Of a DNA stretch of 26,400 nucleotides, positions 1 to 6,909 are shown piece by piece. Positions within the stretch are counted from its first letter, which is position 1, and each line of letters opens with the position of its first letter. This DNA is from a virus: positions 1 through 26,400 of the IMG/VR virus record IMGVR_UViG_3300010400_000049; one strand, written 5' to 3'. The notes under the pieces were generated by a model. The model ran no database searches. It had not been told where the DNA came from and saw only the letters and a program-made list of their open reading frames with translations. The position numbers and the translations under genes were made by a program.

Positions 1-305
1 ACGTCGTTGATGGCGTAGTCTGCCGCCACATTCCAGCCATGCGGCGTACGGCCATTTCGGCGCCATGGATGCCCGCATGCGCAGTGCATCACTTCGTGCA
101 CAAACACAGCGACCAATTGCTCGTTGCTCAGCGTCGCTGTGAAGGCTGGACTAAATGCGATCGTCTGTCCGTCCGTCCATGCCGTTGGACAGGTCGGATC
201 TTCGCGCAGCGTGAGCCTTAGCGCGAGCACACCGAAGAAAGGATTATCGAGTAGCAACGTGCTACGCGCAATCTGTAGACGTTTGAGTGTTGGTGTAGTG
301 GCCAT
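1..305 (-). CDS. Putative HExxH metallopeptidase (DUF2201/VWA-like), partial
   Basis: Reading leftward from an ATG at 305, the frame stays open for 101 codons to the window edge, so the C-terminus is missing. Residues 70-74 are HEVMH, a zinc metallopeptidase HExxH motif, followed by CACGHPWRR and, near residue 91, WNVAADYAIN. This arrangement is typical of the N-terminal putative metallopeptidase domain (DUF2201) that usually precedes a VWA-like domain in proteins partnered with MoxR-type AAA+ ATPases. The start lies 1 nt past the stop of the DUF3150-like gene, with a GGAG about 9 nt upstream, so it is the promoter-distal gene of the leftward operon. Seen: HExxH motif and gene order. Family knowledge: pairing with MoxR ATPases. 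Inferred: the missing part holds the VWA-like domain. Cellular target unknown. Confidence 0.8.
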   Translation of the reverse strand, partial: MATTPTLKRLQIARSTLLLDNPFFGVLALRLTLREDPTCPTAWTDGQTIAFSPAFTATLSNEQLVAVFVHEVMHCACGHPWRRNGRTPHGWNVAADYAIND

Positions 306-306
306 G

Positions 307-1176
307 TTATACCGCTCCGTACAGTCCGCGCATCTGGTCGTAAATCTCCATTGCCTTGTTCGCTGTCGTCTGTCGTGCGCCTTTTGATTCGCGGAGCGTC
401 TCTGGCGAGAACGATGCTAGCTCGCGTTCCACGCGAACGCGCATGCTCTCAAGATCAGGATCGTTCGTGACGTTGAGATTGCGCAGCGATGCACAGACGG
501 CCCGCGCGTTGTTGATCAGGCTGTCCCTGAAGATTGCTTCAGGATCCGACAGACGCTCCGCGATATGCGCGACGCAATCGTGCAATCGGTTCCACGCGTC
601 ATTCATCGCTAAACGCGTCGCTGACTCCACGCGATCGGTAATCGACCGTTCAATGATACTGATCTGGTCGGTCGCAAGTTCAACGCGGATATCGCCGCTT
701 GCGGGAACTGGCGAGTACTGGACGTCGATCCCGAAGCGTTTACGCACGTCTTGCGTGGACGGATAATCTTCAGCCTTGAACAGCCCGTTCAGCTTGATCT
801 GTGCCGCATTCCGCAAGATGGGGTACATGTTCACGAACGTATCGAGCGCATCATCGAAGGCCGATCGTTGCTTGCGCATCCAATCGGTATACGTGTTGTA
901 GTTGGCCGTTGGCAATAGTCTCCATCCTTCGTCCGACCATGCGAGCGTATGCCCGTAGTGCGCGACGCGAATGGACGATGCCAACGAGATCAGCTCTTTG
1001 TACGCTTTAGCGTCGCCCGGCAGTAGCATCTTGTTATAGCGGCCGGCGTCGCTGGACGCGTTGTGCTCAGCGTTCACTTTGGACGTCACAGCGCGATCGT
1101 ACTTGCGCGCTGTCCATGTTGAGATACTGAGATTGACGAGCAAGGCGCGAGAGTGAATCGATGTATCTGCGGTCAT
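307..1176 (-). CDS. DUF3150-like phage protein of the AAA+/metallopeptidase operon
   Basis: 289 residues, ATG start preceded by AGGAGA about 8 nt upstream. The N-terminus (ALLVNLSISTWTARKYDR, about residues 12-29), a central NYNTYTDWM segment and AERLSDPEAIFRDSLINN (about residues 208-225) resemble a phage family I recall as DUF3150, which recurs next to a MoxR/CobS-like AAA+ ATPase and a CobT/VWA-like metallopeptidase. The protein looks largely alpha-helical and charged, with no membrane segment or catalytic motif. It lies between the ATPase (24 nt upstream) and the metallopeptidase (1 nt downstream), so a role as adaptor or substrate of that pair is likely, but this is inference from context. 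The DUF name is from memory and should be checked by profile search. Confidence 0.8.
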   Translation of the reverse strand: MTADTSIHSRALLVNLSISTWTARKYDRAVTSKVNAEHNASSDAGRYNKMLLPGDAKAYKELISLASSIRVAHYGHTLAWSDEGWRLLPTANYNTYTDWMRKQRSAFDDALDTFVNMYPILRNAAQIKLNGLFKAEDYPSTQDVRKRFGIDVQYSPVPASGDIRVELATDQISIIERSITDRVESATRLAMNDAWNRLHDCVAHIAERLSDPEAIFRDSLINNARAVCASLRNLNVTNDPDLESMRVRVERELASFSPETLRESKGARQTTANKAMEIYDQMRGLYGAV

Positions 1177-1200
1177 TGGTCTAATCTCCTGAAAACGTGT

Positions 1201-2220
1201 TTATGAAATGAGCGTTGACAGTTCACCAACGGCCAAGCGCACATAGGCCGTTGTCTGCGTCACTTCCGGGTGGCGTCGCTGTGCATCGCGGATCGTGAGA
1301 ATTCCGAATTCCCCGTACCCGGCCGATACCATGCGTTCCACGTACCGTGCGACGCGCGTGAAGTTCTGCGGAGTGGAACGATGCGCAAGCGCTGTTGCAA
1401 CGGCGTACAAAGCTGACGTCTTGTCAGGTACGGGCGCGTGGTCGGGATCGATGAGGATCTGATCAACGGACGGCAGCGACGCGTACAGCGACAGGAAACC
1501 TAACAGGTTCGTGGCCGCGCCTTCACCAACGGCACCAGCGAACGCCGCATGTCGTACGCTCTCTGGTAAATCCAGCGACATGAGTTTGGCGACATGCGAC
1601 CACGTACGCGGGCTCGGGGAGTTGGTCAGATCCGCTGTTGCCTCAAACTTGCTGAGCTGATCTGGCTCAAAGCGGAGGTAGGCGATCAATGCTGGCGGGA
1701 TGTCATGATCGATCGCCCATGAGCACCAATCATCGATACTCGGCTCCAACTCCACGATCGTGCCGAAGCGGCTCTTGACTGGCTCCAAGATGCCAGAGAC
1801 GCCGGCCCGATCGGATCGTCGGTTCGTTGCTGCCACGAAGACGATGTGCTGTGCGCCGTCTCCCAACGTCGCGTTGTGGCCGCGCGTGGAGTCAAGGAGA
1901 GGCATACAGCCCGACTGAACAGCCGGCGAAGCCTGTCCCAAATCATCAAGGAACCACACCGTACGACGTGTTGCCGCGCGTGCGCGTTCAAGATCGCCGA
2001 AAGGCAGGAACGTGGCGCGCCCGTCCACAATCCACGGCATGCCTTTGATGTCCGTTGGATCCGCGACGGCCGGGTGACTCACGATCACATCGGCGTCAGC
2101 CGCTTGCGCCGATTGGTTCACGATATCGGATTTACCGATACCGGGCGCGCCTTTGATCAGTGTGTGGATACGCGCGCCGATCGTCTGTGAGAGAAGCGTT
2201 GTCAGTTCAGTCGGTTTCAT
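1201..2220 (-). CDS. MoxR-type AAA+ ATPase
   Basis: 339 residues with a full AAA+ core: Walker A GAPGIGKS (residues 24-31), Walker B VWFLDD (88-93), sensor-1 ATN (131-133), a KSRF arginine-finger segment (149-152) and SPSPRTW (201-207) where MoxR/CobS-like ATPases carry the sensor-2 region. The line VADPTDIKGMP near residue 52 is typical of MoxR-type ATPases. Such proteins form hexameric rings that remodel partner proteins, usually with a VWA-domain protein encoded alongside; here the partner candidate is the HExxH protein two genes downstream. The ATG overlaps the end of the 55-aa gene by 14 nt, with a good AGAGGTGA Shine-Dalgarno inside that gene. Phage versions are often annotated as cobaltochelatase CobS. 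No cobalamin genes are present here, so that name would be misleading. Confidence 0.92.
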   Translation of the reverse strand: MKPTELTTLLSQTIGARIHTLIKGAPGIGKSDIVNQSAQAADADVIVSHPAVADPTDIKGMPWIVDGRATFLPFGDLERARAATRRTVWFLDDLGQASPAVQSGCMPLLDSTRGHNATLGDGAQHIVFVAATNRRSDRAGVSGILEPVKSRFGTIVELEPSIDDWCSWAIDHDIPPALIAYLRFEPDQLSKFEATADLTNSPSPRTWSHVAKLMSLDLPESVRHAAFAGAVGEGAATNLLGFLSLYASLPSVDQILIDPDHAPVPDKTSALYAVATALAHRSTPQNFTRVARYVERMVSAGYGEFGILTIRDAQRRHPEVTQTTAYVRLAVGELSTLIS

Positions 2221-2374
2221 TGTTCACCTCTGAATCGCTGTCTGGGTTTCCGCCAATCTCGAAGTACGCCGATGTGCTGTAGGCGCGGATCGTTAATCCG
2301 TCGTCTTCTATGTACACGTTCTCTCCGTACGGCAATGTGTCGAGCCAGCGTTTCAGTTCGCTTGCGTTAATCAT
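2207..2374 (-). CDS. Small acidic protein, 55 aa, unknown function
   Basis: A 55-codon ORF starting MINASELKRWLDTLPYGENV and ending in an acidic tail rich in Asp, Ser, Glu and Asn. Its ATG overlaps the stop of the upstream 98-aa gene by 4 nt (ATGA), and its end overlaps the AAA+ ATPase start by 14 nt, so it bridges the two genes by tight translational coupling. Coding is supported by position, strand, overlaps and an amphipathic N-terminus. No family is recognised. It could be an accessory factor of the ATPase, but the sequence shows no motif to test this. Confidence 0.65.
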   Translation of the reverse strand: MINASELKRWLDTLPYGENVYIEDDGLTIRAYSTSAYFEIGGNPDSDSEVNNETD

Positions 2375-2667
2375 TCGGCACCTACTTTCATGCTGAGCCT
2401 GTTAACGATCCGTCGTACCTCTGCCTCTCCGATCCGCTTCTCGATACGTCTACGCGTCGCTTGCCACTTGCGTAACAACGTCGCTGCGCGTTTCACGCGT
2501 GTACCTGCTCTGCGTTCGTGCGCAATCGCCTTGAGCAGATCCGCTTCCAAGCGTTCGGCCTTGCGCTGAGCCTTGTCCGCTTCGCTGAGCATCGCGAGAC
2601 GCTCTCCGTTGACGCGATAGAACGCGTCATGTCGTTCGTTCAGTGAATCGCGTTCGGCTTGCGTCAT
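2371..2667 (-). CDS. Coiled-coil protein, 98 aa, unknown function
   Basis: 98 residues, highly charged and helical with heptad-like spacing from about residue 8 to 75 (ERLAMLSEADKAQRKAERLE and following), rich in Arg, Lys, Glu and Ala. No membrane segment or Cys motif. It is the first full-size gene after the leftward promoter. Its ATG overlaps the stop of the 10-codon leader ORF (ATGA), and its own stop overlaps the next start (ATGA). I do not recognise the family. The composition suits an oligomerising or nucleic-acid-associated adaptor, which is inference only. Confidence 0.65.
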   Translation of the reverse strand: MTQAERDSLNERHDAFYRVNGERLAMLSEADKAQRKAERLEADLLKAIAHERRAGTRVKRAATLLRKWQATRRRIEKRIGEAEVRRIVNRLSMKVGAE

Positions 2668-2696
2668 ACGCCACCCCAGACAATGTTCGTTTTCAT
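2664..2696 (-). CDS. Possible 10-residue leader peptide
   Basis: ATG at 2696 opens a frame encoding MKTNIVWGGV and stops at 2664-2666. It has the strongest Shine-Dalgarno site in the operon (AAGGGGAG, 5 nt spacer), while the downstream 98-aa ORF has no separate site at usual spacing. The leader stop and the next ATG overlap as ATGA. Either it is a translated leader feeding ribosomes into the operon or a chance ORF. No attenuator hairpin is seen after it. Confidence 0.4.
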   Translation of the reverse strand: MKTNIVWGGV

Positions 2697-2738
2697 CTCA
2701 GCTCCCCTTTCGTGACGCGGTAATCGCGGCACAATCAA

Positions 2739-2767
2739 ATGATAGGCACGTCTAGGTGTGCTGTCAA
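2739..2767 (-). promoter_or_regulatory. Sigma70-type promoter of the leftward operon
   Basis: On the minus strand the sequence reads TTGACA (plus-strand 2762-2767), a 17-bp spacer, then TATCAT (2739-2744). The -35 box is a perfect consensus, the -10 box matches 4 of 6 positions and the spacing is ideal. The expected transcription start near 2732 gives a leader of roughly 35 nt before the 10-codon ORF. The spacer is filled by a 16-bp palindrome-like element, suggesting repressor control. Confidence 0.75.
2746..2761. promoter_or_regulatory. Candidate operator, copy 1, in promoter spacer
   Basis: On the minus strand GCACACCTAGACGTGC is an imperfect palindrome (GCAC, central CTAG, GTGC; 12 of 16 positions symmetric). 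It sits exactly between the -35 and -10 boxes, so a bound protein would block RNA polymerase. A related element lies in opposite orientation about 95 bp away. The binding protein is not known; the divergent HTH protein is a candidate. Confidence 0.45.
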
Positions 2768-6538: not shown

Positions 6539-6909
6539 CAAAGAAAGTCACCACGCGGCGGGGTGGAGCAGTGGTAGCTCGTCGGTCTCATACGCCGAAG
6601 GTCGCTGGTTCGACTCCAGCCACCGCCCCCATTCCACAGCCAACCGTCGCTGAACTGCTCGCGCAGTCGCGCCAGAAGCATCAGGAGTATCGCGACAACC
6701 TGCCGCGCATGGGACCGGGCAACCCGCGAGCCGTCAAGATCGAAGGCAACATCATCGCCGCTGCTGCCGCCATGTGGCGCGCCTGCCGGCTGCGCGTGGA
6801 AGCACATGCGCTCGATCCTGAGCAGAAAGATCCCGCGTGGCAGGACGAAGCCGTCACGCACGATCACGACGCGCTTCTCGGCTTCTACGGGCAGCAGATC
6901 AGTCGATGA
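6535..6909 (+). CDS. Hypothetical protein whose 5' end contains a tRNA gene
   Basis: ATG 6535 overlaps the preceding stop (ATGA), and the frame runs 124 codons to 6909, where the stop overlaps the portal start (ATGA). Codons about 8-33 are the tRNA itself read as protein (GGAVVARRSHTPKVAGSTPA), the familiar translated-tRNA artefact. The plausible protein begins around PTVAELLAQSRQKHQEYRDN and continues helical to the end, with FYGQQISR at the C-terminus. After the tRNA the first in-frame ATG is at 6709, which would give only 66 residues. So either the tRNA is translated as part of this protein or the start is non-canonical. The family is not recognised; position suggests a portal-associated or packaging role. 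Confidence 0.55.
   Translation: MTKKVTTRRGGAVVARRSHTPKVAGSTPATAPIPQPTVAELLAQSRQKHQEYRDNLPRMGPGNPRAVKIEGNIIAAAAAMWRACRLRVEAHALDPEQKDPAWQDEAVTHDHDALLGFYGQQISR
6557..6631 (+). tRNA. tRNA with CAT anticodon (Met, or Ile2)
   Basis: 75 nt folding as a complete cloverleaf: acceptor GGCGGGG/CACCGCC (one G-A mismatch), D arm GAGC/GCTC, anticodon stem TCGGT/GCCGA with CAT at 6589-6591, variable AGGTC, T arm GCTGG-TTCGACT-CCAGC, discriminator C and an encoded CCA (6629-6631). The body from T8 to the variable loop closely resembles initiator tRNA-fMet. However, the first base pair is formed and the GGG/CCC initiator hallmark is only partly kept, so it is probably an elongator. CAT could also be tRNA-Ile2 after lysidine modification. 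It lies inside an open frame. Confidence 0.93.

Follow-up and report, generated by a model that had tools for sequence, protein, structure and literature searches.

We analyzed a 26,400-base window, which is the entire IMG/VR virus record IMGVR_UViG_3300010400_000049, and found that an operon at its left edge carries a conserved set of three genes. They encode a MoxR/AAA_5-type AAA+ ATPase, a middle protein distantly related to DUF3150, and a DUF2201 metallopeptidase whose gene is cut by the contig end. The domains of these proteins, the conservation of their motifs, the linkage of their genes, and the homology of the middle protein to DUF3150 were observed directly, and we put at about even the chance that the three genes specify one MoxR/VWA-type remodeling machine with protease capability, acting on a host protein or a DNA-bound complex. 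The window comes from a podovirus, and matches to portal (PHROG 156), scaffold, P22-type coat, and Hc3 to the right of the operon agree with the first-pass annotation of this DNA, which had called the phage P22-like.

Conservation of the three-gene set

Linkage was assessed in two samples of viral loci, 80 picked by the middle protein only and 80 picked by the metallopeptidase, which have a few contigs in common and are not fully independent. All three genes were present on one strand in the order ATPase, middle protein, metallopeptidase in 77 of the 80 loci picked by the middle protein; in the other three, which lack the metallopeptidase, the stored contig stretch stops shortly after the middle gene. 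Among the metallopeptidase-picked loci, 34 of 80 had all three genes, 4 had the middle and metallopeptidase genes only, and 8 had the metallopeptidase alone, several of these on short contigs. Median gaps were 47 base pairs (bp) and 1 bp in the 112 loci with the ATPase-middle-metallopeptidase order. At L002, L003, and L011, the gene order is altered with the set still together, which speaks for a functional link and against mere inheritance of a single block. When the window was compared with its nearest relatives, L014 and L015, substitutions in each of the three genes fell preferentially at third codon positions. The three genes are a conserved set.

The ATPase has a Walker A motif (GAPGIGKS), a Walker B motif (FLDD), N133 in the sensor-1 region, an arginine finger (R151), and a sensor-2-like R205 within PxPR. 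K30, D92, N133, R151, and R205 were invariant over 37 relatives, and the Walker motifs and arginine finger noticed at first pass thus hold. By Pfam the protein is an AAA_5 member, scoring 33.9 bits against a cut-off of 22, and it also matches PHROG 1297 (E-values in Table 1). The best solved relative, found by comparing a profile of the 37 relatives with solved structures, was the midasin AAA domain (5e-30). Judged by this domain and the invariant Walker, sensor, and finger residues, the protein is classed as a MoxR/AAA_5 AAA+ ATPase. Relatives occur in 473 phage records, many of them N4-like.

The truncated protein bears the zinc motif HEVMH, at 84-98 on the minus strand as reported before, and matches DUF2201_N (PF13203, 96 bits against a cut-off of 23) and PHROG 1314 (1e-26). 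In all nine full-length relatives inspected for domains, PF13203 is followed by the VWA-like domain PF09967. HExxH was kept in 175 of 175 relatives and the longer HExxHxxxxHxxR in 173, and DxSxS of the metal ion-dependent adhesion site (MIDAS) was present in all 169 complete relatives; such near-universal retention points to strong constraint on both the zinc and MIDAS sites. A model of the L014 relative had a predicted local distance difference test (pLDDT) score of 90, and its VWA half resembled VWA/I domains with Z about 11-12.5; Foldseek matches of this half include MDN1-MIDAS and NorD. The pairing of DUF2201_N with a VWA-like domain in these relatives, together with the modeled fold, supports the earlier reading of a MoxR and metallopeptidase-VWA machine. 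We also noted that N4 gp25 (L101:2165-3307), PHROG 1314, and many phage records are labeled "HNH endonuclease" or "homing endonuclease" in PHROG and RefSeq. For gp25-type proteins, with DUF2201 metallopeptidase and VWA domains, "HNH endonuclease" looks like a propagated mis-annotation.

The middle protein had been described as DUF3150-like. On its own it had no Pfam match and did not reach the curated cut-off of PF11348, so the description does not stand as a direct match; as a statement of distant kinship it does. Of 48 members of the middle family, 14 match PF11348 (best 2e-7), and hhalign aligned the family with canonical bacterial and plasmid DUF3150 at 97% probability (E 9e-11, 265 columns). 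The model of the protein (pLDDT 93) matched a phage DUF3150 model in BFVD (E 1e-20, template modeling score 0.85). Taken together, the family hits, profile comparison, and fold match identify the middle protein as a distant, not canonical, DUF3150 relative, of which we found 244 viral relatives in IMG/VR. A Foldseek search of the PDB gave no match under E 0.001, which we do not take as a sign of a new fold. Resemblances to vinculin, ClyA, and four-helix bundles in the PDB were set aside, as helical bundles commonly reach Z near 9, and no fold relation is claimed. Separately, a 515-amino-acid (aa) version of the middle protein, exceeding its phage counterparts by about 220 residues, is encoded in a Phycisphaerae metagenome-assembled genome (L184:829-2373); neither ATPase nor metallopeptidase was found in the short stretch fetched around it.

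A related set in conjugative plasmids

DUF3150 also occurs outside phages. Within one bacterial phylum, 18 of 297 genomes had a PF11348 match, and in the chromosomal loci first inspected the DUF3150 gene was flanked by an AAA_5/CbbQ_C ATPase gene on one side and a CobT-like gene bearing HExxH on the other. Canonical DUF3150 was present in 1172 PLSDB plasmids, 984 of them conjugative. AAA+, DUF3150, and VWA genes stood in that order in five of six inspected plasmids, the sixth having no annotated VWA gene, and ssb, bet/recT, lambda-type exonuclease, or YqaJ lay near DUF3150 in five of the six. In three plasmids checked, HEAAH is found close to the N-terminus of the VWA protein and DxSxS close to its C-terminus.

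Proposed function and alternative explanations

We propose that the MoxR/midasin-type ATPase would form an ATP-driven ring, on which, or on the client, the VWA/MIDAS domain of the metallopeptidase-VWA partner would dock. MoxR-class ATPases act with VWA partners in remodeling clients, and in NorQD the VWA domain inserts a finger into the pore of the ATPase (PMC13036017). The HExxH domain would cut the client once engaged, and the DUF3150-like helical protein would be a dedicated third subunit, most likely an adaptor linking client to ring. Transcription of the set would start at its own promoter and run leftward, in the direction opposite to that of the head genes, and during infection the machine would remodel, and probably cleave, a protein client. 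As its client, a virion part would be less likely than a host protein or a DNA-bound complex that incoming DNA encounters, because the related set in conjugative plasmids lies beside single-strand-binding and recombination genes. Given the plasmid parallel, the early-type position in the window, and the middle-transcript position of the N4 genes, we regard such a client as somewhat more likely.

Several points weigh against this proposal. Complex formation, the adaptor role, and cleavage are carried over from known MoxR/VWA systems, and the nature of the client is the weakest step. The VWA half of the window's own metallopeptidase lies beyond the contig end; it is expected left of position 1, because the closest relatives, 65-69% identical over the visible part, have it. 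An exact 35-base probe from the edge matched no other IMG/VR contig. The third subunit is not universal, since 34 of the 80 metallopeptidase-picked loci have the ATPase and metallopeptidase without a DUF3150 relative, and N4 has none. Plasmid gene order was inspected in six plasmids only, and the AAA+ and VWA proteins of the plasmid type fall into subfamilies other than those of the phage proteins (CbbQ_C and CobT, as assigned from the chromosomal loci), so the parallel consists of architecture and DUF3150 homology only. Furthermore, terminase genes are the most frequent recognized neighbors of the set. One lies next to it in the window, and at least five other loci of diverse kinds (L005, L014, L102, L108, and L109) show the same adjacency, with terminases of several unrelated families. 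This adjacency leaves room for a late or packaging role.

The terminase neighbors fit a virion assembly machine, in which the ATPase and VWA protein would chaperone tail or head parts and the peptidase would trim structural proteins. For the same pair in group 2.2 jumbo phages, Iyer et al. (2021; PMC7824862) have proposed such a role in assembling virions and processing structural proteins. In Acidianus two-tailed virus, the MoxR protein p618 interacts with the VWA protein p892, and the two have been connected with tail development (PMC4124505). However, conjugative plasmids, which make no virion, carry a related three-gene set, and this parallel argues against a purely virion-assembly role. 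In addition, the operon in the window runs divergently from the head genes and has its own putative promoter, and N4 gp24/gp25 are located in the middle-transcript region (PMC4193335). We consider virion assembly rather unlikely.

Lytic phages and conjugative plasmids both face host defenses on entry, and the machine might instead be a counter-defense or host-takeover protease that disassembles and cuts a host protein blocking incoming DNA. The patchy occurrence of the set in phages and the retention of both ATP and zinc sites are consistent with this role. However, no defense-associated family was matched: the best hit in a PADLOC defense-family search was mad8 (E 0.039), which covered just 27 residues about Walker A and does not place the ATPase in MADS Mad8. 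The bpMoxR (beta-propeller type) domain of MoxR-vWA ternary conflict systems scored 15 bits on the ATPase, below its cut-off of 27, and as to a third component of the VMAP, iSTAND, or FtsH type, the middle protein had no Pfam hit in a search that did not cover VMAP and iSTAND profiles. That the pair belongs to the core genes of N4-like phages across many hosts points to a client of a general kind, and the plasmid copies sit among recombination genes. We judge a counter-defense protease quite unlikely.

Those recombination genes would also suit a DNA-processing or modification accessory that loads or removes proteins on phage DNA, aided by Nmad5-like neighbors. An Nmad5-like gene was present in 48 of the 80 middle-picked and 41 of the 80 metallopeptidase-picked loci. 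Its best Pfam match (PF18757, 1e-6) is weak, though, the function of Nmad5 is itself a prediction, and the closest relatives of the window set, L014-L016, have no such gene, so this role appears unlikely. The Nmad5-like family, of about 220 aa (MATVRMS...; for example L114:5318-5977, L142:5295-5969, and L041:7990-8679), lies between the ATPase and metallopeptidase genes in many loci lacking DUF3150 and usually downstream of the metallopeptidase where DUF3150 is present. The idea that it replaces DUF3150 was ruled out: 66 loci carry both genes, mostly with the Nmad5-like gene following that for the metallopeptidase, and the two families could not be aligned (hhalign probability 0.3%).

A metal-insertion machine like CobS-CobT or NorQ-NorD, maturing a metalloenzyme, would follow the same AAA+/VWA logic, and the plasmid-type partners do match CbbQ_C and CobT. 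On the other hand, the phage VWA protein bears the DUF2201 zinc-protease domain, a Pfam search of ten DUF2201 members at E 0.01 did not list CobT (PF06213), and no metalloenzyme target gene was noticed beside the set in the loci inspected; we hold this role to be very improbable.

Extending the proposed remodeling machine to its plasmid counterpart, we tentatively suggest that the AAA+/DUF3150/zinc-protease-VWA machine might be a general mobile-DNA accessory of tailed phages and conjugative plasmids, which would clear or remodel a protein complex bound to DNA that is entering a cell or recombining. If so, the DUF3150 subunit would mark out a new functional class of MoxR/VWA machines.

Organization of the operon in the window

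Five minus-strand open reading frames (ORFs) fill 1-2667 (Table 1), all at the positions given in the first-pass annotation, which had described a leftward, tightly coupled operon with its own promoter. Its description holds: the junctions are ATGA overlaps, a 24-bp gap ahead of the 289-aa gene, and a 1-bp gap ahead of the last gene, and a sigma-70-like site, identified by consensus match only, precedes the operon, which is divergent from the rightward head operon.

Table 1. Features of the leftward operon
Feature	Positions	Strand	Basis
DUF2201 metallopeptidase, N-terminal 101 aa, cut by contig end	1..305 (ORF 3-305)	-	PF13203 3e-27
Middle subunit, 289 aa, distant DUF3150 relative	307..1176	-	Profile-profile comparison and predicted fold
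MoxR/AAA_5-type AAA+ ATPase, 339 aa	1201..2220	-	PF07728 4e-8, PHROG 1297 2e-61
Small ORF, 55 aa, overlaps both neighbors; not counted in the system	2207..2374	-	Unconserved
Small basic ORF, 98 aa	2371..2667	-	Relative in L014 only
Possible leader ORF, 10 codons, MKTNIVWGGV	2664..2696	-	Strong ribosome-binding site; function inferred
Putative sigma-70-like promoter, TTGACA-N17-TATCAT	2739..2767	-	11/12 consensus positions; consensus match only

The two small leading genes had been grouped with the machine, and this part of the earlier interpretation is not supported. The 55-aa protein had no relative among 180 loci or in phage records. The 98-aa protein had one relative only, in the nearest relative L014 (phmmer, L014:4740-4952, E 8e-24), with none in the other loci of the 180 and no phage-record match. 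Being unconserved beside the ATPase, the test that the first-pass annotation itself had set, these genes fall outside the conserved system and were ruled out as machine components.

Other features of this region were also observed. The ten-codon ORF overlaps the start of the 98-aa gene by ATGA and may encode a translational-coupling leader peptide. An 18-nucleotide (nt) inverted repeat, 83% complementary with its arms 80 nt apart (2744-2859), overlaps the operon promoter and is a possible regulator site; CGTAGNNNTA-type motifs are commoner near 2744-2859 than in shuffles (4 vs 0.9) and may likewise be regulator sites. A tRNA-Met (CAT) gene, also found by Rfam, lies at 6557-6631 (+) inside the head module between the terminase and portal genes.

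Comparison with known systems

The set includes a known phage pair, as judged from its PHROG 1297 and 1314 matches and from the matches of N4, Bacillus phage G, and PA5oct members to our profiles. The ATPase and metallopeptidase-VWA genes are core genes of N4-like phages, gp24 and gp25 (PMC4193335, PMC7650795). These Schitoviridae core proteins are homologous to the ATPase (3e-72) and the metallopeptidase-VWA protein (5e-78) and are encoded in the same order as in the window, but there is no DUF3150 gene between them and N4 belongs to another phage family. The group 2.2 jumbo phage pair (PMC7824862) has the same ATPase plus metallopeptidase-VWA architecture but is described, in the accessible part of that paper, as two proteins without a DUF3150 subunit; in PA5oct and Bacillus phage G, other genes stand between the two.

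More distant parallels have the same partnership. In p618/p892 of Acidianus two-tailed virus, a viral MoxR ATPase likewise has a VWA partner, and the two interact, but the virus is archaeal, and the part of the report available mentions neither a metallopeptidase domain nor a DUF3150 subunit. The RavA-ViaA, NorQ-NorD, and CbbQ-CbbO chaperones likewise couple a MoxR-class AAA+ ring to a VWA partner, but their clients belong to host metabolism, and the accessible portions of the sources mention no zinc-protease domain or separate DUF3150 subunit.

The claim of an undescribed system was overstated, as the pair is already published for N4-like and jumbo phages. DUF3150 was named in none of the PubMed Central papers searched, nor did these papers contain the third subunit or the plasmid parallel. 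N4 gp24/gp25 have been listed as conserved without an assigned role for over a decade, and the third subunit and plasmid set narrow the question; N4 in E. coli K-12, cyanophage MinM2, and conjugative plasmids are tractable systems for finding a shared client.

A counterpart that does have a third subunit is the CobS/NorQ-like AAA+-DUF3150-CobT-like set of IncC and other MOBH plasmids. It has the gene order of the phage set, a homologous DUF3150 protein, and a VWA protein whose HExxH lies toward the N-terminus and whose DxSxS lies toward the C-terminus (three plasmids), but it differs in the CbbQ_C tail on the AAA+ protein and a CobT-like VWA protein instead of DUF2201, both as assigned from the chromosomal loci, and in its longer proteins. 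As far as their sequences tell, the phage and plasmid sets thus share one layout and a homologous DUF3150 subunit, with different ATPase and VWA subfamilies, and it is this subunit and the plasmid parallel that appear to be the new part.

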